Assembly (NCBI GenBank): GCA_015060925.1
Contig: SUXM01000001.1
Coordinates: forward strand, 1-64,000
DNA length: 64,000 nt
From: Parabacteroides distasonis
Lineage (GTDB): Bacteria > Bacteroidota > Bacteroidia > Bacteroidales > Tannerellaceae
Direction of reading: 5' to 3'
Shown here: piece after piece, positions 32,287 to 44,805 of the stretch
Layout: each line of letters starts with the position of its first letter
Position numbering within the stretch: the first letter of the stretch is position 1
Program-made: the position numbers and the translations under genes
The notes under the pieces: generated by a model
Told to the model about the DNA's origin: nothing
The model's database searches: none
What the model saw: the letters and a program-made list of their open reading frames with translations, nothing else

Positions 32287-33051
32287 TTATTGCATTTCAA
32301 ATGCTTCAACATATGCACCGAATGAACCAACGCCCGGAACGTGGAAGTTCAAAGCAAACAGGTAGTTATTACCCTCAATCTTATATTGTTCTAATGCAAT
32401 CCAAATCATGCCGTATGTAGAATGTACATAACCACATTCTTGGTCACTCATAACAACATTTCCTGCTTCATCGATAGAGAATACAAGAGGATAACCTGAG
32501 AAATAAACATCCGGTAAACGATAAACGTTAGCTTCTTCTGCTTTTTCAAGAGTCTGTTCCCAGCTTTCTCCAAAGAATTCAGAAGTAAATACGCCTGTAC
32601 CAATTGTTTTGAAAGTCAACTTACGTTGAGCAGAAACTGTGATTGAATTAACCTTTGAAGGAGAAGCATTTTCTTCAGCAAAGCTTAAAGTCAATTTGTA
32701 AGTAGTACCGGCTGCCAAGGCATTGATGTCATCGTAGTTGATCACAATGTCAGTAGAAGCTTTACCATCTTCAAAAGTAGCAGTTGTATTAGCCAAAGTA
32801 AACAAGCCTTCTACATTTGCTGACATTTCGATGTTTACACTGCTTGTACCGGCTGTTGTATTACGATAGATAGGCACGATAATCTTGTTTCCATCTGTCG
32901 GTAACATTTCTACTGATTGCAAAGTACTTGCAAAGGCATACTCTGTCTTAGTCACGTCATACATGGTTTTGTCAGCATCTGTATCACATGAACTGAAGAA
33001 GCTTAAACTGATAACAGCTAAAGCGAATAGTTTGAATATATGCTTTTTCAT
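32287..33051 (-). CDS. left-cassette surface lipoprotein
   Basis: 254 aa, SPaseII signal with FFSSC22. Two beta-rich domains: an immunoglobulin/BACON-like part (about residues 30-140) and a C-terminal domain (about 145-254) with a GTGVFTSEFFGE start. No enzyme motif. Its place as third gene of susC-susD-X resembles SusE/F-type surface binding proteins. The right cassette carries a lipoprotein of similar size at the same position (42669-43445). Confidence 0.75.
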   Translation of the reverse strand: MKKHIFKLFALAVISLSFFSSCDTDADKTMYDVTKTEYAFASTLQSVEMLPTDGNKIIVPIYRNTTAGTSSVNIEMSANVEGLFTLANTTATFEDGKASTDIVINYDDINALAAGTTYKLTLSFAEENASPSKVNSITVSAQRKLTFKTIGTGVFTSEFFGESWEQTLEKAEEANVYRLPDVYFSGYPLVFSIDEAGNVVMSDQECGYVHSTYGMIWIALEQYKIEGNNYLFALNFHVPGVGSFGAYVEAFEMQ

Positions 33052-33071
33052 TTCTCTAATCTTTTATGAAA

Positions 33072-34610
33072 TTATTGATAAATTGGGTTCTGATCTGCAT
33101 CAGAGATGTTTTCATTACCATCAATTTCAGACTGTGGCAAAGGGAAGATGAACAAGATAGAACCTGCTGTAGTCGGCTTTGTTTGGACAGTCTGAGTGTG
33201 GTTAGAACCTTCGTATGCACGGTTGAAACCTAATCCTAAACGTTGCAAGTCAAAGATACGGCCTGCTTCACCCCAAAGTTCCACACGACGTTGGAACAAG
33301 ATTTCGTCCATCAATGTAATCAACGGAGCGTTGGTGTTTTCGTTGTAGGTGTTTGCATCTGTACGTTGAGCCAAACGAGCTTCAAAATTGCTGTCACGAA
33401 CAGCTCCCAACTGTTTGATGGTTTCACGTGCCTGGCTGTATTGTCCCTGATGACATTCAGCTTCCGCTTTGATCAAGACCATTTCTTCTGCACGCATGAA
33501 AAGGTAGTCACCTGTACGAGTGGTATAGTCAGCCATTTTGAACTTTAACTGGCAATAGCTTACGTTAGAACCTGCACCATCTTCAGCCAATGCACCACGG
33601 AACCATGCCAAACGGCTGTCAGTTGCCGGAATCAAGTTGTAAAGACCGGTACTGATACACTGAGGAGCCTTGCTACCATACATACCTGGAGCATCAGAGT
33701 CCATGTGAGAGAAGAAGCTGTTGAAATGTGTACTTTGGTCTGCGATGATTTCCACACCCCACATTACGTCATCAACACCTACATTGTTGTTACCTCCTAA
33801 CTGTTCTACAGTCGCTAATTTCAAACCGCTCTTGGTCAATGCTTCAGTAGCAGCAGCAGCAGCTGTTGCATAGTCATGCATAACCAATGCCACACGTGCT
33901 TGGATACCTTTTACGATGTAGTAGTCGATATGAGAGATATGTTTCTGAGTCAAACCTTGCAACAAGTTAGCTGCTTTGTCCAAGTCTGCATTGATTTGGT
34001 CATATACACCCTGTACAGTACCACGAGGTTTACCTTCAGAACCTGCTACAGTCGGTTCAGAATACAAAGGAACACCCGGAGCATTCTGGTTGTTGAAGTA
34101 GGTCTGTTGATACAACTGGATCAAATAGAAGTAACAGTATGCACGTACAGCGTATGCCTGGCCGACTACGCTTTTAATCGCATCCGGATCACCACCCATA
34201 GTTTCTTCAGCTGCAATGATATAGTTGGCATTGCTGATCATGGTGTAGTAGAAGTTCCAAACTGAATATGAACGACCTGATTTACCCGCGAAGTCACCAT
34301 GTACATTGAAACGGTAGTCTTCATAGAACCAACCCTGTCCCTGTGAGTACATCAAATGGTCTTCACCCATCAATTCAGCCAAAAGGTTGATAGAGGTGAT
34401 ACCGAAGTTTTCAGCAGCCCAGTTAGCACTCCAACCGGATACATACATCATACGGTAGATACCGTTGATTGCAGATTCTGCGCTTGTCGCATCTGCGAAC
34501 ACTTGTGAACCTGACACCTGGTCTGTAGGTTCTGTGTTCAACTCATCGGAACATGAACCAAACATCATAAGTCCGGCCAATGAGCATATATATAAAAGAT
34601 TCTTTTTCAT
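33072..34610 (-). CDS. SusD-family lipoprotein, left cassette
   Basis: 512 aa, SPaseII signal (MMFGSC20), SusD TPR fold (QAYAVRAYCYFYLIQLYQQT, PGVPLYSEPT) and C-terminal RRVELWGEAGRIFDLQRLGLG. Partner of the SusC encoded 22 bp upstream. It resembles the right-cassette SusD in motif order (RRIELWGEGFAFYDLKRLNKG there), showing that the two cassettes are paralogous. Confidence 0.93.
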   Translation of the reverse strand: MKKNLLYICSLAGLMMFGSCSDELNTEPTDQVSGSQVFADATSAESAINGIYRMMYVSGWSANWAAENFGITSINLLAELMGEDHLMYSQGQGWFYEDYRFNVHGDFAGKSGRSYSVWNFYYTMISNANYIIAAEETMGGDPDAIKSVVGQAYAVRAYCYFYLIQLYQQTYFNNQNAPGVPLYSEPTVAGSEGKPRGTVQGVYDQINADLDKAANLLQGLTQKHISHIDYYIVKGIQARVALVMHDYATAAAAATEALTKSGLKLATVEQLGGNNNVGVDDVMWGVEIIADQSTHFNSFFSHMDSDAPGMYGSKAPQCISTGLYNLIPATDSRLAWFRGALAEDGAGSNVSYCQLKFKMADYTTRTGDYLFMRAEEMVLIKAEAECHQGQYSQARETIKQLGAVRDSNFEARLAQRTDANTYNENTNAPLITLMDEILFQRRVELWGEAGRIFDLQRLGLGFNRAYEGSNHTQTVQTKPTTAGSILFIFPLPQSEIDGNENISDADQNPIYQ

Positions 34611-34632
34611 GTTTTGTTCGAATTTATGATAA

Positions 34633-37600
34633 TTAGAATGTTACATCAACACCGAAAGAAACGGTTCTTACAGGCACATAACCGAAGTTTGTACCACCTG
34701 TGAAGTTGTATTGTGGGTCCATACCTTTCAAGCAGTTGAACAATACCAAGTTGTCACCGGTTGCAGTGAAGCGAACATTTTGCATTTTAAGAGACTGCGC
34801 AATCTTTTTAGGCAATGAGTAACCCAAAGTGATATTCTTGATTGCCAAATAAGAGGCATTGATCAAATCTGCATCTGTTACGATGTAGCTCTTACCTACT
34901 TCGATGCGAGGGATGTCAGTGATGTCACCCGGTTGTGTCCAAGCACGTCCTAAGTGAGCGTGTTTAGCCTGACCGATGTAGTTACCATATAACAAAGTAC
35001 GATAAACACTATCATATACCTTACCACCGATAGAGTAGGTACAAAGGATGTTCAAGTCGAAATCTTTCCATCTGAATTCGTTAGAGAATGAACCATACAA
35101 GTTCGGGATACGGCTACCCTGGATTTCTTTGCATTTGGTTGCTTCAGACTGGTTGTTAGTGATGTATCTTTCACCTACTTGGTTACCGTTTTCATCTTTT
35201 TCCCAAGCCCAATACAACTGCTGTCCGGTAGCAGGGTCCACACCTGCAGAATTAGCTGTGTAGAATGAGTTCAAGGTTTCACCCTCTTTGATGATGTAGC
35301 TACCAGAGATGATTTCCGGTTTGTCAGCCAATTTCAAGACCTTGTTCTTCACTGTAGATCCCATCAAAGTCAATCGCCAGTTGAAATCTTGTAACTTGAT
35401 GATGTCACCGGCAAGTGTGATATCCCAACCTGTATTGCGCATACTACCGATGTTCTTGTTGTAACCGTCGAAACCTAAAGAGGATGCCATCGGGAAAGAC
35501 ATCAACATGTCACTTGTTTTACGGCTGTACCATTCTACAGACACAGAAAGACGATCAAATACACGACCTTCGATACCTACGTTCAAGTTACCGTTCTTTT
35601 CCCATTTCAAGTCTTTATTTTCCAAAGAAGAAAGACCAACTCCACTCATGCTGGCATTCGGCCAACCTAAATCATAGAATGACTGCCATGCGTAGTATGT
35701 TCCTAAGTTGTCATTACCCTGTACACCGTAACTTGCTTTTACAGACAAGTTGTTCAACCATTCTTTGTCTTTCAAGAATTCTTCTTGAGAGATACGCCAG
35801 TTACCACCGACAGACCAGAAGTGACCCCAACGGTTGTCTTCGTGGAAACGAGAAGAACCGTCTGTACGATAAGAAGCTGACAAGTAGTATTTGTCATCAT
35901 AGTCATATTCCACGCGAGACAAGATAGATTCCACTGCGTAGTTGTCTTGGTATGAAGATGCATCAGAAATAGTAGTTGCTGCATCCAATTCAAACAAACC
36001 TCCAAATGGGAAACCGGTCTTGGTTGCACCTAAATACTGATAGTTGTATTTGTAGAACTCGTGACCTACCATTGCAGATACATGATGTTTACCAAATTCA
36101 CGGTCGTAGCTTAAAATCTGGTTGAAAGTATAACTTGATTTACGAGTTGTATATTTGTCGATAGTACCCTTAACAGCTACAGAGTTACCGTTGTACGGGT
36201 TGTAGTAGGTCATACCTGCATTGTTAACCAAGTCGATACCATAGTTTACAGAAAGTTTCAAACCTTCTAACGGACCCTCTTTCAAGTCACCGATGGTTGC
36301 ATACATACGAGCACTCAAGTTGTCACTTGCAGAAGAGTATTTGTCATCATACAATGTAGCGATGGTGTTCCAGTCTGCGTTAGCACCAGCCGGACGGTTT
36401 GTACCGTAGTCAAATACCGGTTCGCCAAGTGCATCCATTACAGTAGCACCGGTAGCATCCTTTTCAAATACCGGGAAGATCGGAGCCATTAATTGAGCAG
36501 TGTACCATACGTTAGAGTTACCAGAAGAGTTTTCAACAGCAGTGTTGCTTTCGTTGCGTGAGAAGCTGGCGTTCATACCTGCCTTCATCCATTTAGCAAT
36601 TTCAGAGTCGATGTTCATACGTCCGTTGAAACGTTCGAAGTTTGTTGTTTTCAACATACCTTCTTCGTTCAAATAACCTACAGAGAACATATACTTGGTC
36701 TTTTCAGAACCACCGTTCAAAGATACATTGTATTCTTGGCGTAATGGGCTGTCAGCCATCGCTTCATCCATCCAGTCTTCAGAATATTTCAAAGTAGCAT
36801 CGCTACGTACTTTACCGGTAGTCGGGTCGATCAATTCAGTGATAGAGTAGTTGAACGGGTTGTACTGTTCGTTCTTACCAAAGATAGCAGTAGCACCGCT
36901 CTTCATGTTGTTCAATGCACCTACAGCAGCATCAGCATAGCTCAAACCGCTGTTAAGCATCAAGTCGTTTTTGTAAGATTGGAATACAGTTTCAACGTAA
37001 CCCTTTTCATCCATTGTTTCGTAACGAGGGATAGAACGAGAAGCGAAACCCCAGTTTGCTTTCAAGTTTACTTTGATCTTACCCTGGTTACCCTTCTTGG
37101 TTGTGATCATAACCACACCGTTTGCACCACGAGAACCATACAATGCACCGGCAGAGGCATCTTTCAAGATAGTCATTGATTCGATGTCGTTCGGGTTGAT
37201 AGATACGATGTTACCATCGTAAGGGATACCATCCACTACATACAACGGAGTTTGACTTGCGTTGATAGAACCGAAACCACGGATAACTACAGATACACCT
37301 GAACCCGGCTGACCTGAACCTGAAGTAGTCTGTACACCTGATGCCAAACCTTCCAATGCTTTGGTTACGTTGGCAACCGGTCTTTGAGCAATCTTTTCAG
37401 ATTTGATGATTTCAGCAGAACCGGTGAATGATTCTTTTTTCGCTGTACCGTAAGCAACAACCATGACTTCGTCCAATAGTTTGCTATCTGGATACATGAC
37501 AATTTGTAGGTTTCTCTTTACCTGTACTTCTTGGGTCTTTAAACCTAAGTAAGAAACCATAAGAGTTCTTGCAGAACTCGGCACTTCTAAAGAGAAGAAA

Positions 37601-37770
37601 CCATCTAAGTCGGTCACTGAACCAATTGTTGTACCTTTCACAACAATTGATGCGCCGATTACCGGCTCATTGTTCTCAGCAGAGATAACCGTACCGGTTA
37701 CCTTTGTTTGAGCGTGAGCCATTCCAATACCTATTAATAGGCAGAACAAAAGGGATGTTAACCTTTTCAT
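34633..37770 (-). CDS. SusC-family TonB-dependent receptor, left cassette (ON in this orientation)
   Basis: 1045 aa from the ATG at 37770 (an upstream GTG is disregarded). Signal peptide 1-20 (ending AHA), carboxypeptidase-D-like domain 22-95, plug (DEVMVVAYGTAKKESFTGSA, VIRGFGSINASQTPLYVVDG) and barrel ending VSFGVDVTF. Codons 65-74 (SSARTLMVSY) carry the inverted repeat shared with the right-cassette susC. The promoter, leader, signal peptide and first 64 codons thus lie on the invertible segment. In the given orientation this gene is complete and expressible. Confidence 0.94.
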   Translation of the reverse strand: MKRLTSLLFCLLIGIGMAHAQTKVTGTVISAENNEPVIGASIVVKGTTIGSVTDLDGFFSLEVPSSARTLMVSYLGLKTQEVQVKRNLQIVMYPDSKLLDEVMVVAYGTAKKESFTGSAEIIKSEKIAQRPVANVTKALEGLASGVQTTSGSGQPGSGVSVVIRGFGSINASQTPLYVVDGIPYDGNIVSINPNDIESMTILKDASAGALYGSRGANGVVMITTKKGNQGKIKVNLKANWGFASRSIPRYETMDEKGYVETVFQSYKNDLMLNSGLSYADAAVGALNNMKSGATAIFGKNEQYNPFNYSITELIDPTTGKVRSDATLKYSEDWMDEAMADSPLRQEYNVSLNGGSEKTKYMFSVGYLNEEGMLKTTNFERFNGRMNIDSEIAKWMKAGMNASFSRNESNTAVENSSGNSNVWYTAQLMAPIFPVFEKDATGATVMDALGEPVFDYGTNRPAGANADWNTIATLYDDKYSSASDNLSARMYATIGDLKEGPLEGLKLSVNYGIDLVNNAGMTYYNPYNGNSVAVKGTIDKYTTRKSSYTFNQILSYDREFGKHHVSAMVGHEFYKYNYQYLGATKTGFPFGGLFELDAATTISDASSYQDNYAVESILSRVEYDYDDKYYLSASYRTDGSSRFHEDNRWGHFWSVGGNWRISQEEFLKDKEWLNNLSVKASYGVQGNDNLGTYYAWQSFYDLGWPNASMSGVGLSSLENKDLKWEKNGNLNVGIEGRVFDRLSVSVEWYSRKTSDMLMSFPMASSLGFDGYNKNIGSMRNTGWDITLAGDIIKLQDFNWRLTLMGSTVKNKVLKLADKPEIISGSYIIKEGETLNSFYTANSAGVDPATGQQLYWAWEKDENGNQVGERYITNNQSEATKCKEIQGSRIPNLYGSFSNEFRWKDFDLNILCTYSIGGKVYDSVYRTLLYGNYIGQAKHAHLGRAWTQPGDITDIPRIEVGKSYIVTDADLINASYLAIKNITLGYSLPKKIAQSLKMQNVRFTATGDNLVLFNCLKGMDPQYNFTGGTNFGYVPVRTVSFGVDVTF
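37549..37578 (-). repeat. left inversion site (inverted repeat L)
   Basis: 30 bp inside susC, identical except one base to the reverse complement of 38171-38200. It contains the palindrome AGTTCTTGCAGAACT (37564-37578), a suitable tyrosine-recombinase crossover site. Confidence 0.88.
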
Positions 37771-37893
37771 AGACACACTTTTTTTGTTTAACGTATATAA
37801 ATAAAAATATTTATTCTATTTCTTATGTGAAAATCAAACGTTTAAGTCTGATAAACTAATACCTGATAACCTAAAAACTTTCCAAAGAAGCCG

Positions 37894-37901
37894 CAAATAT
37901 A
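37894..37901 (-). promoter_or_regulatory. -7 element of the invertible promoter
   Basis: Leftward TATATTTG, 124 bp before the susC ATG, inside the invertible segment. The -33 box is not an exact TTTG. Confidence 0.55.
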
Positions 37902-38011
37902 AGCATAAATTTGTTATTATATCTAAAATATGTGTGTTTTTTTAAAGAAAATAGGTACTTCTCAAGCTGTTAAAGAGTTTTTTCTAACACCGAACTATTT
38001 TTTATTTCATC

Positions 38012-38091
38012 TATTACGGAACAATTAGTTCATATATTATGAAACAAAAGTTTCACATATTATGGAACAGATGTTTCGTATATTATGAAAC
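38012..38091. promoter_or_regulatory. phased dyad array in the invertible segment
   Basis: Units beginning TATTAY start at 38012, 38035, 38058 and 38081, an exact 23-bp period. Three contain a dyad of form GRAAC-N4/5-GTTYC (e.g. GAAACAAAAGTTTC); the fourth is a half unit. They lie 110-200 bp upstream of the invertible promoter and 80 bp from the right crossover site, so they may bind a regulator or an accessory recombination protein. Confidence 0.7.
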
Positions 38092-38155
38092 TTTTTATAC
38101 CTACATGGAAATATTTATTAGTCGCCTATTTTATTTCCCTCATATGTATTAATGT

Positions 38156-41125
38156 ATGAAGGATATGCGTAGTTCTGCAAGAACTCTGATGGTTTCTTAC
38201 ATCGGTATGAAAACGCAGGAAGTTGAAGTGAAACGCAACTTGCACATTGTCATGCATCCGGATAACCAGATGTTGGACGAAGTCATGGTTGTTGCTTACG
38301 GTACAACGAAAAAGTCTTCTTTTACCGGTGCTGCTTCAACCGTTCGTGGTGAAAAGATTCAGAAAATGCAGGTTTCTGATATCTCTAAATCTTTAGAAGG
38401 TACGATTGCTGGGGTACAAATTGCCGCAGAATCAGGTACTCCGGGTTCAAGTGCAAGTATCCGTATTCGTGGTATTGGTTCTATCTCAAGTAGCCAAGAA
38501 CCGTTGATCGTAGTGGATGGTGTTCCTTATGAAGGTTCTTTGAACTCTATCTCTACTCAAGATATTGAAACATTGACTGTATTGAAGGATGCAGCTGCTA
38601 ACTCTATGTATGGTGCACGTGGATCTAATGGTGTAATCATTGTGACAACTAAAGGTAGCAAATCTGGTAAAGCGAAAATCAATTTTGAAGCTCGTTATGG
38701 TTTCAATGCTCGTGGTGTAAAACCGTATGACGTTATTACAGATGCTGGTGAATATTACGAAATGATGTATGAATCTTATCGTAACAGTTTGATCCCTTCT
38801 AAAGGTTATGCTGGTGCAAGCCAATATGCTGCTCAAAACTTGATTTCAGGTCTTTTGAAATACAATAAATTTGTAGGTGTTGCTGACAATGAATTGATTA
38901 ATCCTTTGACAGGTAAATTGAATCCGGCAGCGACCACTTATAAATGGACTGATGACTGGACTAAAGATCCGTTTGAAAATGGTTCTCGCCAAGAGTACAA
39001 TATCAACATTTCAGGAGGTAACGATATGACGCAGGCTTATGCCTCTTTGGGTTATTTGAAAGATGAAGGTTACATGGTTGGTTCAAACTTTGAACGTATA
39101 TCAGCTCGTGTTAAAGTGGATCAGAAGATTGGTAAGTTTGTGAAAGTCGGTGGTAACATTGCTTATGCGAATACAAACAGAAGATCATTCGGTGATGAAG
39201 GTAGCAACTATTCAAATATTTTTATGTTCTCTCAGAACATAGGTCCGATTTATCCAATTTACTTGTATGATACAAATGGTCAATTGATGTATGACGAAAA
39301 GGGTAATGTTCGTTATGACTTTGGTTCTGAATACAACCGTCCTTATTCTTCTGAACAGAACCCGTTGGCTGTAGCCAAAGAAAACATCAATAGTGTTTTG
39401 CGTGACAACTTAAGCTCACGTGGATATTTGGAAGCTAACTTCTTGAAAGACTTTAGATTTACATTCAATATTGCGTATGATGTATTTAATACGAACCAGA
39501 CTGAATTTGCAACACCGATTGGTGGTGATGCATTCAATGTTGGTGGTCGTGGTTATAAATACAACACTCGTCGTGGTGCTTTGAACATCAACCAGTTGTT
39601 GAATTGGACACGTCAGTTTGATGCGCACAATGTGACAGTATTGTTGGGTCATGAAACAAAGAATGACAAGTACAGTTATATGTATGGTCACATGACTAAT
39701 TTTGCTGATCCGACTAACCCTGAATTTAGTAATGCTTCACAATATCAAGGTTTGAGCAGTTATACTGCTGAATATGCATTGGAAGGTTATTTCGCAAAGG
39801 CTGAATATAACTACGATAACAGATATTATGTAACCGGAAGTTTCCGTCGTGATGGTTCTTCTAAGTTCCATGAAGATAACCGTTGGGGATCATTTTGGGC
39901 AGTAGGTGCTTCTTGGAGAATCAAGGAAGAGGCGTTTATGAAGAATGTTGATGTGATCGACAATTTGAAATTAAAAGCCAGCTTTGGTACACAGGGTAAT
40001 GATAATATATTGAATGACGGTTATACTATTTGGAAGGCTTATTCTGATTTGTACACTGTGGAACGTGTAGATGGTGATGCTGCATTTACCAAAGTGTTGC
40101 GTGGGAATAAGGATTTGACTTGGGAAAAGAGTAACAACTTCAACGTGGGTGTTGAAGCAGGTTTGTGGAACCGAGTGGATGTGAATTTTGATTTCTTCAT
40201 CAAAGAAACAAAAGATATGTTGTATAAAAGTCCTTTGGCAACATCAGAAGGTAGTCCGACTTTCATTTATCGCAATGAAATGGATATGAAGAATACCGGT
40301 ATCGAATTTGATATCAATGCCGATTTGGTTGATACAAAAGATTTGAAATGGAATATCTCATTGAACGGTACTCATTACAAAAACAAATTGACAAAGTTAC
40401 CGGTATCTAAACCGGCAGAAGAATATCCTGATGGATACAACTATGGTTTGTATTGGAGAAAGTTAGGTGGCTCTTTGTATGATTTCTATACGTATGAATA
40501 TGTAGGAGTTGAAGCTGAAACAGGTAAACCTATGTATAATAAGTATGAAGAAGATGAAAATGGGAATGAAGTAGTTTCTACAACTACAGACATCAACGAA
40601 GCTACAAGACGCCAAAGTGGTAAAAGTTCTATTCCTAAATTCGTAGGTGGTTTGGCTACTACATTGGAATCTCATGGATTCGATTTGACTATCCAAACTG
40701 CATTCCAATTGGGAGGTTATGTATATGATAGCTCATACGCAAGTTTGATGAATTCAGGTGATGCCGGTCAGAACTACCATAAAGATATGTTTAACCGTTG
40801 GACTCCGTCAAATACAAACACCGATATTCCGATGTTGAGTTACCAAACTCAGAACCAGACTATCAACAATGGTAACTATGTGGATTATTTCTTGACAAGC
40901 GCATCTTATTTCAGTTTGCGTAATATAACATTAGGTTACACATTACCTTCTGTTTGGATGAAGAAAGCCAATATTGATAAGTTACGTATTTATTTGACAG
41001 GTGACAACATCTGGTTGCAGTCAAAACGTAAAGGTTTGGATCCACGTTTGTATTTTAATGGTGATACAAACTTCTCATACTCAGCTTTGAGTACTTATTC
41101 TATCGGTGTAAACCTAACATTCTAA
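38156..41125 (+). CDS. SusC-family receptor, right cassette (silent, lacks export signal)
   Basis: 989 aa as written. From codon 6 it aligns with residue 65 onward of the left SusC (SSARTLMVSYIGMKTQEVEV), so signal peptide and most of the carboxypeptidase-D domain are missing. Plug (DEVMVVAYGTTKKSSFTGAA, RIRGIGSISSSQEPLIVVDG) and barrel (ending YSIGVNLTF) are intact with no frameshift, which argues against decay. The ATG at 38156 (MKDMR) is fortuitous and no promoter is visible. Plug and barrel differ substantially from the left copy, so inversion would change ligand specificity or antigenicity. Confidence 0.9.
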   Translation: MKDMRSSARTLMVSYIGMKTQEVEVKRNLHIVMHPDNQMLDEVMVVAYGTTKKSSFTGAASTVRGEKIQKMQVSDISKSLEGTIAGVQIAAESGTPGSSASIRIRGIGSISSSQEPLIVVDGVPYEGSLNSISTQDIETLTVLKDAAANSMYGARGSNGVIIVTTKGSKSGKAKINFEARYGFNARGVKPYDVITDAGEYYEMMYESYRNSLIPSKGYAGASQYAAQNLISGLLKYNKFVGVADNELINPLTGKLNPAATTYKWTDDWTKDPFENGSRQEYNINISGGNDMTQAYASLGYLKDEGYMVGSNFERISARVKVDQKIGKFVKVGGNIAYANTNRRSFGDEGSNYSNIFMFSQNIGPIYPIYLYDTNGQLMYDEKGNVRYDFGSEYNRPYSSEQNPLAVAKENINSVLRDNLSSRGYLEANFLKDFRFTFNIAYDVFNTNQTEFATPIGGDAFNVGGRGYKYNTRRGALNINQLLNWTRQFDAHNVTVLLGHETKNDKYSYMYGHMTNFADPTNPEFSNASQYQGLSSYTAEYALEGYFAKAEYNYDNRYYVTGSFRRDGSSKFHEDNRWGSFWAVGASWRIKEEAFMKNVDVIDNLKLKASFGTQGNDNILNDGYTIWKAYSDLYTVERVDGDAAFTKVLRGNKDLTWEKSNNFNVGVEAGLWNRVDVNFDFFIKETKDMLYKSPLATSEGSPTFIYRNEMDMKNTGIEFDINADLVDTKDLKWNISLNGTHYKNKLTKLPVSKPAEEYPDGYNYGLYWRKLGGSLYDFYTYEYVGVEAETGKPMYNKYEEDENGNEVVSTTTDINEATRRQSGKSSIPKFVGGLATTLESHGFDLTIQTAFQLGGYVYDSSYASLMNSGDAGQNYHKDMFNRWTPSNTNTDIPMLSYQTQNQTINNGNYVDYFLTSASYFSLRNITLGYTLPSVWMKKANIDKLRIYLTGDNIWLQSKRKGLDPRLYFNGDTNFSYSALSTYSIGVNLTF
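38171..38200 (+). repeat. right inversion site (inverted repeat R)
   Basis: Counterpart of 37549-37578 with one mismatch (38188). Core AGTTCTGCAAGAACT at 38171-38185 is a 6-3-6 palindrome read in frame as Ser-Ser-Ala-Arg-Thr, exactly as in the left susC. Confidence 0.88.
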
Positions 41126-41153
41126 TAAAACAACCTATTTAAAATAGAAGAAT

Positions 41154-42647
41154 ATGAAATTTTCAAAATATATTGCAGCAAGTATGATTGCTATGGGTTT
41201 GACAGCTTGTGGTGATTCGTATCTTGATACCGAATATACAGAATATTTGGATGAAACGGCTGCAGCTGAAGCAGCCGGTAAAAATCCGGATGTATTCTTG
41301 AATGGTGCATGGTCTTGGATGGTGACATTTGGTCAAACAAGTACTTCTCATGATGACTTTGGATATATGGGTTCTTTGCATGCCACTGACATGATGGGAC
41401 AAGATATCTGTATGGCAGCCTCTCACTGGTTTAACTATGATTATCAGTTGGATAATCGTTTGGAATCTTATCGTCGTACAAAATGCCACTGGACCAATTA
41501 TTATACCATGGTTGCAAAGGCAAATGAAATTATCAATTTGTATCCGGAAGGTGGTGAAACTGTATCGCAGAAAGGTTTGTTGGGACAGGCTTATGCAATG
41601 CGTGGTTTGGCTTATATGCACTTGATACAGTTGTACCAGTTTACTGTAAAGGCTGATGGTTCGGTGAATAGTGAAGCTCCCGGTATCCCATTGATGTATG
41701 TGGCAGCTGATGGTAAGACTGAAGAGGAAATTGCAGCAGCAAAGGCTCGTAATACTGTTGCTATTGTTTTTGACCAGATTGAAAGTGACCTTTTGAAGGC
41801 TGTTGAAAATTTGGAAGCAGGTTATGTTCGTCCAAATAAGAATTACATTGATGCAAGTGTAGCCAATGGTTTTTTGGCTCGTTATTATTTGTTGAGCCAG
41901 CAGTGGGAAAAGGCTGCTACAACTGCCAACAAAGCACGTAACGGTTACAGTATGATGGATAATAGCACAAGCGGTTTGTTTGATGGTTTCATGACTGTCA
42001 ACAATAAGGAATGGATGTGGGGGTTTGCTCATACAACTGAAACACAGACTACTTTCGCTTCATTCTTCTCTATGATTTCAAACTTTGCTCCGGGTTATGC
42101 CGGTATCGGTTATGCTCCTCGTTTGATTGATGCGAAGTTGTATTCTCAGATTCCTGATACAGATTATCGTAAAGGTTTGTTTAATGGACCGGATGGAGAT
42201 GCAAACCAGTCAACAACTGCGGCTAAGTTACCTTATGCAAGTTTGAAATTTGGTGACACCGGTGACTGGACTATGCATTATGTTTATATGCGTGCAGCTG
42301 AAATGGTTTTGATCGAAGCTGAAGCATACGCACACATGAACCAGGGTGCTAAAGCTGCAGAAGTATTGAAAGTGTTGATGTCTGCTCGTCAACCGAACTG
42401 GAATAGAGCTTCTGTTACAGTTGATGATGTTTATTTGCAGCGTCGTATCGAATTGTGGGGTGAAGGTTTTGCATTCTATGATTTGAAACGTTTGAATAAG
42501 GGTATTGACCGTACATACGAAGGCAATAACCACTTGCCAAGTTATGACCTTAAGGTGGATGCACAGGATGTAAGATGGACATATCAGATTCCATTGTCTG
42601 AAATCCAGGAAAACAAATTGATCAACGAAGAAGATCAGAATCCATAA
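41154..42647 (+). CDS. SusD-family lipoprotein, right cassette
   Basis: 497 aa. SPaseII signal (GLTAC19), SusD fold (QAYAMRGLAYMHLIQLYQFT, APGIPLMYVA) and RRIELWGEGFAFYDLKRLNK near the C-terminus. 28 bp behind the silent susC; presumably expressed only after inversion. Confidence 0.93.
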   Translation: MKFSKYIAASMIAMGLTACGDSYLDTEYTEYLDETAAAEAAGKNPDVFLNGAWSWMVTFGQTSTSHDDFGYMGSLHATDMMGQDICMAASHWFNYDYQLDNRLESYRRTKCHWTNYYTMVAKANEIINLYPEGGETVSQKGLLGQAYAMRGLAYMHLIQLYQFTVKADGSVNSEAPGIPLMYVAADGKTEEEIAAAKARNTVAIVFDQIESDLLKAVENLEAGYVRPNKNYIDASVANGFLARYYLLSQQWEKAATTANKARNGYSMMDNSTSGLFDGFMTVNNKEWMWGFAHTTETQTTFASFFSMISNFAPGYAGIGYAPRLIDAKLYSQIPDTDYRKGLFNGPDGDANQSTTAAKLPYASLKFGDTGDWTMHYVYMRAAEMVLIEAEAYAHMNQGAKAAEVLKVLMSARQPNWNRASVTVDDVYLQRRIELWGEGFAFYDLKRLNKGIDRTYEGNNHLPSYDLKVDAQDVRWTYQIPLSEIQENKLINEEDQNP

Positions 42648-42668
42648 TTTTATAAAGAATAAGTAAAG

Positions 42669-43445
42669 ATGAAGAATATATTTAAAACTTTAATCCCTTG
42701 TCTTGTTTTGGCTTTCGGTGTAACCAGCTGTTATGACGAAATGGAAGATAAGTCAAGTATTGACTCACAGTACGAAAAGGCAAGTAATGTGACTGTCTCT
42801 TTAGGTGAAGTTTCTGTTGTTAGTTTCTCTGAAATTGCGGCAAATGTAAGTGTCAGTGATACCATTGGCGTATTAGAAGTTGGTGTAATGGTTTCTAATA
42901 CCCAGGATTTTTCGAGTTATACGGCTTATGCAGAAGAGAATTTGGCATTGTCTTTCAAAAAAGCTATTACAGGTTTGTCTGAAGAAACAACCTATTATGT
43001 ACGTGCTTATGCTTATACTGTAGCAGGTGGTACGGTTGTGAGTGAACCTGTATCTGTGAATACTCCAGCTGCTCCTATCTTTGATTTGAATGGTACTTAT
43101 ACTTGTGTTGAATATGATGAATCAGGAACATTGAATGGTTCTTATAAAGTAGCAATCGCATTTGTAGCAGGAAGTACAACAGAGGTGGAAATTACCAATA
43201 TTTGGGAAGGAGGTATGACTGTTTCCGGTACATTTGATCCTGCTACTGGTAAATTGACTATTCCTGCTAACCAAGTTATTCTTGTCCATCCTTCTTATGG
43301 GGATGTATGGATTGAAGCAGAAGATGGTGTCGCACTTGTTGGTCAGTTTACTGCAAAAGGAGGGTTCTTGAATACAGGTGTGTTCGGAGCTGTATGTAGT
43401 GCTGGTTATTTTGGCTATCAATATTTGAAGATGACTCATGATTAA
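42669..43445 (+). CDS. right-cassette surface lipoprotein
   Basis: 258 aa, SPaseII signal (GVTSC21). An N-terminal fibronectin-III-like domain (about 40-135, TGLSEETTYYVRAYAYT) and a C-terminal beta domain (about 140-258, FDLNGTYTCVEYDESGT) are visible. It occupies the same third position and size class as the left-cassette lipoprotein but is diverged in sequence. Likely surface ligand-binding accessory. Confidence 0.75.
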   Translation: MKNIFKTLIPCLVLAFGVTSCYDEMEDKSSIDSQYEKASNVTVSLGEVSVVSFSEIAANVSVSDTIGVLEVGVMVSNTQDFSSYTAYAEENLALSFKKAITGLSEETTYYVRAYAYTVAGGTVVSEPVSVNTPAAPIFDLNGTYTCVEYDESGTLNGSYKVAIAFVAGSTTEVEITNIWEGGMTVSGTFDPATGKLTIPANQVILVHPSYGDVWIEAEDGVALVGQFTAKGGFLNTGVFGAVCSAGYFGYQYLKMTHD

Positions 43446-43472
43446 GAATATTCTTATTGTGATAAGAAGGCT

Positions 43473-43501
43473 AAAGGGAGGACTAAACGTCCTCCTTTTT
43501 T
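43473..43501 (+). terminator. terminator of the right cassette
   Basis: GGAGGAC-TAAAC-GTCCTCC stem followed by six T residues, 30 bp after the lipoprotein stop and before the recombinase gene. Confidence 0.85.
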
Positions 43502-43632
43502 GTGTATTTGGGTGGTTATGCCTATTTGTTATCCTTGAAGTATAACTTATATACGAAACCTTGTTTACTGGATTTAAACTGTTAAAAATGGAATCTGTCA
43601 TAATATTATATTAATCTTAAATTAAATGTACT

Positions 43633-44805
43633 ATGGAAAAGATTCTTTATAATGTCGTGTTTAATCGTACTAAGAAATTGAACGCAGAAGGGAAAGCAGT
43701 AGTCCAAGTAGAGGCTTATCTAAACAAACAAAAGAGATATTTTTCTACGAAAATATATGTGAAACCTAATCAGTGGGACAATGAGCGGAGGAGAATAGTC
43801 CGGCATCCGAATAAAGATGAGTTGAACCAATATATTGCTGATTTTATCTCAGATTTGGAACGGAAGGAATTGACTTTTATTCGAAAGGGGTATCCTTTGT
43901 CGTTAAGTCTTTTAAAAATGAAAAATGGTTGTTTGCCTGATTCTTTTATATCTTTTATGCGGAGGGAGATCCCTAAGAGCCATTTGAAAGCTTCAACTTT
44001 GAAGAACCACTATTCTACTCTACAATTGATAGAGCAATATAAACCGAATCTTCTATTCGAAGAGGTCTCATTTGATTTCCTTTGCGATTTTGAAGATTAC
44101 TTATTAGGCATTGGATATCATCGGAATACCATTGCTAAACACATGAAACATCTTAAACGTTATATCAATTTGGCAATCAATAAGGAGCTGTTTTCTCTTG
44201 ACAAATATCCATTTCGTAAATACCGGTTGAAATATGTGGAGACTCAGAAGGAGTCTCTGACTCCGGAGGAGTTGGAGCGGTTGGAACTTTTAGCTCCAAC
44301 TTTACATGGTGTTATCCGGAAAATCCTTGATATGTTTTTGTTTTGTTGCTATACCGGTCTCCGTTTTTCTGATGCAACCATGATAAAAGTGGATGATTTC
44401 CATTTTATTGATGATCGGCTATGGTTGATTTATACGGCAATAAAAACTGATGTAAACATACGTCTTCCTCTTTTCTTGCTGTTTGAAGGTAAAGCAATCT
44501 CAATTTATCGACAATATTGTGAGAGAGGGTATGATACATTGTTTGGTATACCTATGACAGCTAACTCCTATGTCAACCGTATGTTGAAACGGGTAGGGAT
44601 GTTATCTTGTATTGAAAAGAGGATAACTTTCCACACCGCTCGCCATACCAATGCTACCTTATTGTTGTATAATGGGGCTAATATTACAACAGTCCAAAAA
44701 TTATTGGGGCACAAGAGTGTAAAAACAACAGAAATTTATAGTAATATTATGGATATGACGTTGGTGCGTGATTTGAAAAATATCCAGATTAAATTTAAAC
44801 CTTAA
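43633..44805 (+). CDS. tyrosine recombinase, candidate susC invertase
   Basis: 390 aa. An N-terminal arm-binding/SAM-like part (residues 1-200) precedes the catalytic domain with all key residues: Arg244 (TGLRFSD), Lys271, His334 and Arg337 (HTARH), His360 (LGHK) and Tyr369 (EIYSNI). This is the Bacteroidota integrase type found in conjugative elements and in DNA-inversion loci. It lies directly behind the right susC-susD cassette, with no transfer genes, tRNA or att site nearby. It is therefore the obvious candidate for inverting the segment between 37564 and 38185. Confidence 0.9.
   Translation: MEKILYNVVFNRTKKLNAEGKAVVQVEAYLNKQKRYFSTKIYVKPNQWDNERRRIVRHPNKDELNQYIADFISDLERKELTFIRKGYPLSLSLLKMKNGCLPDSFISFMRREIPKSHLKASTLKNHYSTLQLIEQYKPNLLFEEVSFDFLCDFEDYLLGIGYHRNTIAKHMKHLKRYINLAINKELFSLDKYPFRKYRLKYVETQKESLTPEELERLELLAPTLHGVIRKILDMFLFCCYTGLRFSDATMIKVDDFHFIDDRLWLIYTAIKTDVNIRLPLFLLFEGKAISIYRQYCERGYDTLFGIPMTANSYVNRMLKRVGMLSCIEKRITFHTARHTNATLLLYNGANITTVQKLLGHKSVKTTEIYSNIMDMTLVRDLKNIQIKFKP

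Follow-up and report, generated by a model that had tools for sequence, protein, structure and literature searches.

Why would a bacterium keep, beside a complete set of receptor genes, a second set whose receptor gene lacks a beginning? The question is raised by a locus of Parabacteroides distasonis within the 64,000 nucleotides (nt) of DNA analysed here, hereafter the window (contig SUXM01000001.1, positions 1 to 64,000, of assembly GCA_015060925.1; this genome, denoted G000, comprises 2.54 Mb in 41 contigs and is 88% complete). In gut Bacteroidales, SusC/SusD pairs carry nutrients through the outer membrane, and they may also act as phage receptors or immune targets. In the window, two cassettes, each with susC, susD and a third gene, face outward from a common segment, and a tyrosine recombinase gene follows the right one. 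We consider it very likely that the locus is a real either/or phase switch that chooses between two SusC/SusD uptake systems by site-specific DNA inversion. In the mechanism we propose, a 0.6-kilobase (kb) segment located between inverted sites inside the coding sequences of the two susC genes would be the sole leader. Recombination at a core of 15 base pairs (bp) would flip this segment and join it in frame to either the left or the right SusC body, leaving the other body as a silent, headless gene, and the linked recombinase would be the likely inverting enzyme. The benefit would presumably be receptor diversity in the face of changing nutrients, phages or host immunity.

The anatomy and the reading frames of the locus are directly observed (Table 1). 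An earlier interpretation made from the letters and open reading frames, which we call the sequence-only reading, described a complete leftward susC-susD-lipoprotein cassette and a rightward cassette that is headless but otherwise intact. The frame coordinates and domain matches agree with this description, and the right end of the span it assigned to the locus, 34633..44805, is correct, but the left end is not, as the left cassette extends through susD and the lipoprotein-like gene to 32287. A signal peptide was called by eye in the left SusC. The right SusC has none (also by eye), its match to TIGR04056 starts only at model position 43, its CarbopepD_reg_2 domain is reduced to the C-terminal half, and no promoter of its own was found for the gene.

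The two 30-bp repeats, one in each susC gene, are identical at 29 of 30 positions, and both sit in codon phase 0, as the sequence-only reading had it; no other place in the window matches them with three or fewer mismatches. The exact 15-bp core occurs only at these two places in the genome, and contig C5 has one further copy that differs at a single position. This core, AGTTCT-GCA-AGAACT, had been described as palindromic, which holds for its 6-bp arms but not for the central GCA; its letters fit AGTYYY-N4-GDACT, the presumed form of Tsr0667-type sites. When the predicted segment is flipped in silico, the result is an in-frame right SusC of 1048 amino acids (aa), the length foreseen for the fusion, and the left gene becomes a headless frame of 986 aa.

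Table 1. Features of the two-cassette susC/susD locus in the window
Feature	Position	Strand	Remarks
Whole unit	32287-44805		Two outward-facing cassettes and the recombinase
Left third gene	32287..33051	-	254 aa, lipoprotein-like by eye
Left susD	33072..34610	-	512 aa; Pfam SusD_RagB and SusD-like_3
Left susC, leader-bearing now	34633..37770	-	1045 aa from its ATG; TIGR04056, 840 bits
Left site, 30-bp repeat	37549..37578	-	15-bp core at 37564-37578; lies at codon 65 of left susC
Predicted invertible segment	37564..38185	strand-neutral	Contains promoter, start codon, signal peptide and codons 1-64, with both cores
Bacteroidales -7 box TATATTTG	37894..37901	-	Inside the predicted segment
Right susC, headless	38156..41125	+	Open frame of 989 aa, otherwise intact
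Right site, 30-bp repeat	38171..38200	+	Core 38171-38185; codon 6 of the right susC open frame
Right susD	41154..42647	+	497 aa
Right third gene	42669..43445	+	258 aa, lipoprotein-like by eye
Terminator-like hairpin	43473..43499	+	Between the right cassette and the recombinase; 1 found, shuffle mean 0.2
Tyrosine recombinase, proposed invertase	43633..44805	+	390 aa

By itself, the repeat is weak evidence and not proof of a site, because the codon alignment of the two susC genes, which are 53% identical at the nucleotide level, contains another stretch, about 100 nt downstream of the site, that is identical at 30 of 30 positions. An argument from chance based on the repeat alone is accordingly insufficient, and the finding that none of 100 shuffles contained a match to the repeat comes from a null model that ignores shared coding. 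At 37563-37579, the core arms register, on the strand of susC, as a terminator-like hairpin too, whether by chance or as a side effect of the site.

The promoter box is conserved: a match to TAnnTTTG, the promoter consensus stated in an excerpt of PMC4747536, is present 289-324 nt from the segment end in all six segments examined (G000, G011, G013, G014, G018 and G020), two of which hold further boxes of this type. A generic promoter scan of 37400-38400 was uninformative (4 found, shuffle mean 3.9). Three GTTTCATAATAT-like repeats are present within the predicted segment at 38034-38095; none was detected in the five relatives examined, so they are not a conserved part of it.

At homologous loci, we surveyed in-frame sites of the pattern AGTTCYGCNARRACT in 20 sets (19 genomes and the stretch L018), obtaining 38 site rows in 15 of them. 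The leader count covers only cassettes with such a coding site; some stretches hold other complete susC genes, for example ones whose sites lie outside the gene. Exactly one leader was counted in 13 of the 15 site-bearing loci and two leaders in none of them, with the qualification that G003 and G004, within the 13, are uninformative because each contributes a single site row. No leader was scored by the survey rule in G001 and G037; in G037, a leader is present beside a site, and an assembly N interrupts it before its own site.

The products of leader exchange are directly observed at homologous loci in relatives. After three of the 38 rows were dropped (two short frames and one at a stretch end), the remaining 35 cassettes, 12 leader-bearing and 23 headless, formed 18 clusters at 65% identity, and four of the 10 multi-member clusters include both states. 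The left cassette of the window, for instance, bears the leader in G000, G018 (92%) and G025 (79%), whereas its counterpart in G020 (79%) is headless. G011 and G014 have three cassettes in common, at 96-97% identity, of which one has the leader in G014 only, another in G011 only, and the third in neither. Three blocks of DNA homology between these two genomes terminate exactly at site positions, and two different leader-bearing cassettes have exactly the same 60 nt in front of the site. Moreover, a 536-bp intergenic segment located between divergent susC genes in nearly identical stretches of G004 and G005 (L066 18446-19011 and L064 6254-6819) shows an identity of 1.000 in the inverted and 0.627 in the uninverted comparison, with both 150-nt flanks at 1.000; a AGTTCTGTATGAACT site bounds it at each end, and a gene related to the recombinase lies nearby. 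This site pair is non-coding and hence supports the site class and the neighbourhood rather than the coding-site switch itself.

The evidence for the switch is, then, that there is at most one leader per site-bearing set, that cassettes alternate between leader-bearing and headless states, that breakpoints are exact to the base, and that there is one clean inversion. These traces in related genomes support the two-cassette phase switch with a linked recombinase that the sequence-only reading had proposed, and this arrangement is not unique to the window. It is such comparison among assemblies, and not the repeat alone, that carries the case for the predicted switch.

The cores themselves appear to co-vary. 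All cores within a genome are identical in 12 of the 13 multi-site genomes, the sole exception being G010, against a shuffle mean of 4.4 and with none of 20000 shuffles reaching 12, a comparison that is not a clean probability because variation is limited by the search pattern and because of relatedness among the species. Both cores of G018 have GCT at the centre, compared to GCA in the two of the window, even though its right cassette is not the one of the window (34% to the latter).

The linked recombinase contains Arm-DNA-bind_5, SAM-like and Phage_integrase domains and, as claimed previously, all catalytic residues: R244, K271, H334, R337, H360 and Y369, of which those from H334 to Y369 are covered by the alignments with XerA and IntI4, and R244 and K271 were assigned by eye. 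Of the 40 loci that a search with this protein yielded, 16 reach at least 49% identity, and 14 of the latter are recorded as Parabacteroides or Tannerellaceae. Matches at E <= 1e-60 were found in 24 of the 38 genomes of the genus, the genome itself included. In 17 recombinase stretches (16 genomes and the window), rarA is adjacent to the recombinase in nine, one open reading frame away in one, located beyond further cassettes in four and not seen in three. Opposed sites paired at a distance of no more than 2 kb, as counted by eye, are present in 11 of the 24 genomes with a recombinase match and in 1 of the 14 without one, a weak association (p = 0.027, which ignores relatedness and completeness). 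From the sequences, we infer that the linked recombinase performs the inversion, and its identification as the enzyme of the switch seems to us probable.

The alternative that survives best, unlikely in our estimate, retains the same switch and has it driven mainly by a recombinase acting in trans, for example a paralog on contig C33, with the linked gene serving other sites. The genome encodes seven Arm-DNA-bind_5 matches, and the C33 paralog (L092 68-1186) is 60% identical to the linked recombinase, the match stopping at query residue 345, before the tyrosine, near the contig end. Action at a distance has a precedent in Tsr0667 of B. fragilis, which acts on many distant regions according to the excerpted text of PMC4747536, and a close site pair is also present in G032 (76% complete), where no recombinase match reaches the above threshold. 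However, the co-location of the recombinase and site-bearing cassettes in many genomes of the genus argues for the linked enzyme. The contig end at the paralog may itself mark another assembly-breaking invertible locus. In L018 (9457-11022), from Parabacteroides sp. PH5-46, the segment between the two susC sites contains the recombinase gene, the 3' end of which runs into one of these sites. The idea that the recombinase is the last gene of the right cassette, so that switching would feed back on its own expression, is weakened because a terminator-like hairpin separates the two, and read-through may occur; no TAnnTTTG box was found in the 187-nt gap before the recombinase.

Homologous recombination or gene conversion between susC relatives could in principle produce similar exchanges in place of a site-specific switch. 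The second identical stretch common to both susC genes would fit such a process, as would the similarity of the first ~45 nt past the site between different cassettes of G011. Nevertheless, the three breakpoints fall at the 15-bp core, the DNA immediately upstream of it being dissimilar, and the inversion between G004 and G005 is clean, involves 15-bp sites and lies in non-coding DNA, so that we regard this explanation as quite improbable.

The evolution of the headless cassettes bears on whether they are of use. Among 13 cassette pairs chosen by the analyst, the ratio of nonsynonymous to synonymous substitution rates (dN/dS) was 0.017-0.064 in six of the seven headless-headless pairs (one not computable), 0.025 and 0.037 in two of the three leader-leader pairs (one not computable), and 0.026-0.036 in the three mixed pairs, values that are approximate because dS exceeds 1 in several pairs. 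For the right cassette, the ratio was 0.052 between G000 and G013 and 0.064 between G013 and G020, with saturated dS; the headless members of cluster 4 gave 0.017-0.033. Because dN/dS is low, the silent bodies are apparently kept functional by purifying selection. Decay of the right cassette as a useless duplicate, as might be surmised from its lack of a detected promoter and signal peptide and its headless state in all three genomes of its cluster, is hardly credible given the full-length frames and low dN/dS of headless cassettes.

Several observations weigh against a coding-site inversion switch in P. distasonis, in addition to the second identical stretch, the C33 paralog, the weakness of the association between the recombinase and site pairs, and the qualifications attached to the leader count and to the core comparison. 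This species is represented by a single assembly, for which flipping is a prediction. The right cassette is headless in all members of its cluster (G000, G013 at 83% and G020 at 77%), and the clean inversion between G004 and G005 involves a non-coding site pair and is thus of the promoter type. Coding sites of the pattern AGTTCYGCNARRACT were not detected in five of the 20 sets (G002, G005, G017, G019 and G023). In G010, the frame with the leader ends 10 codons away from the site start, and the two cores differ. Finally, no ortholog of the right body was found in G019, the best match being 40%.

G019 is the closest relative by recombinase (75%). Its left cassette (90%) has the leader and the site at codon 65, and its core, AGTTCT-TCC-AGAACT, combines the same 6-bp arms with another centre, outside the search pattern. 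One of its contigs (C376; L089 1-348) starts within the predicted segment, immediately upstream of the -7 box; an assembly broken by the coexistence of both orientations would be expected to look like this.

A broader interpretation, which we advance tentatively and with somewhat less than even confidence, is that of a genus-wide receptor-choice locus, in which a recombinase, often beside rarA, would maintain a single leader together with a library of headless SusC/SusD cassettes that varies between species, allowing cassette capture beyond two states. Cassettes would be gained, lost and reordered between species, with the leader moving from one to another, and the core would drift at its centre while copies within one genome stay alike.

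Other site pairs in the genus were also detected. On contig C5 of the P. distasonis genome (L003 1501-1515 and 1718-1732), the pair AGTTCTACAAGAACT / AGTCCTACAAGAACT, on opposite strands and 217 bp apart start to start, lies upstream of another susC, with a TATCTTTG box in between that points away from the gene. By eye, this pair resembles an invertible promoter set to OFF, because the box faces away. Further opposed pairs of the core pattern are found in G008 (two on C1), G012 (C17), G018 (C13), G028 (C9) and G032 (C34), mostly outside the locus studied, which suggests that there are more such switches in the genus.

As for the surroundings of the locus, the genes 3' of the recombinase are, by eye, presumably rarA and serC. 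The left third gene has no Pfam or NCBIfam family match, no RNA elements were found at Rfam gathering thresholds in 28000-50000, and the leader-plus-site DNA (23 bases) had no matches in viral contigs.

The principle of the switch is already known from Bacteroides, and the particular form here is a two-state, codon-65, leader-only flip. SusC/SusD shufflons of B. fragilis driven by Tsr0667 are said to have been described by Nakayama-Imaohji in 2009. Excerpts of PMC4747536 and PMC11852207 credit Tsr0667 with inversions of the shufflon type, which affect three SusC/SusD clusters and a further nine regions; as in the window, a tyrosine recombinase is involved and inversion picks among susC/susD sets, whereas the one linked recombinase of the window faces just two cassettes. 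In shufflon EE of B. fragilis, alternative ragA/susC pairs are placed under one promoter, with inverted repeats likewise at the 5' ends of these genes, according to portions of PMC5729914 and PMC3090145. There, reportedly, the segments that invert are large and the start codon is overlapped by the repeats, whereas in the window the repeats are at codon 65 and a 0.6-kb leader flip would suffice. The nutrient-receptor shufflons of B. thetaiotaomicron, mentioned in an excerpt of PMC12548429 that does not describe their anatomy, likewise involve phase-variable receptor choice. Within the genus, many inversion sites have been reported in P. distasonis (PMC5903667), and capsule phase variation is also inversion-based (PMC12118408); the excerpts of these two papers describe no susC leader switch. 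SusCD orthologs and inversions within genes are both named in a review of invertible regions known so far (PMC12632263, in part), and no description of this Parabacteroides locus was found in the literature searched, as far as its excerpts extend. The window shows three features of a SusC/SusD shufflon, namely multiple cassettes of which only one has a promoter and signal peptide, frame-keeping inverted sites at the 5' end, and a tyrosine recombinase with its catalytic residues.

In one survey, excerpted from PMC10939037, the orientations that differed most between bowel-disease patients and controls were near susC/susD genes. A switch reduced to two states and one linked recombinase would offer a simple system for the study of switching rates and receptor selection, and the comparative signs used here, the same leader on different bodies and breakpoints at the core, may allow such switches to be recognised from assemblies alone.

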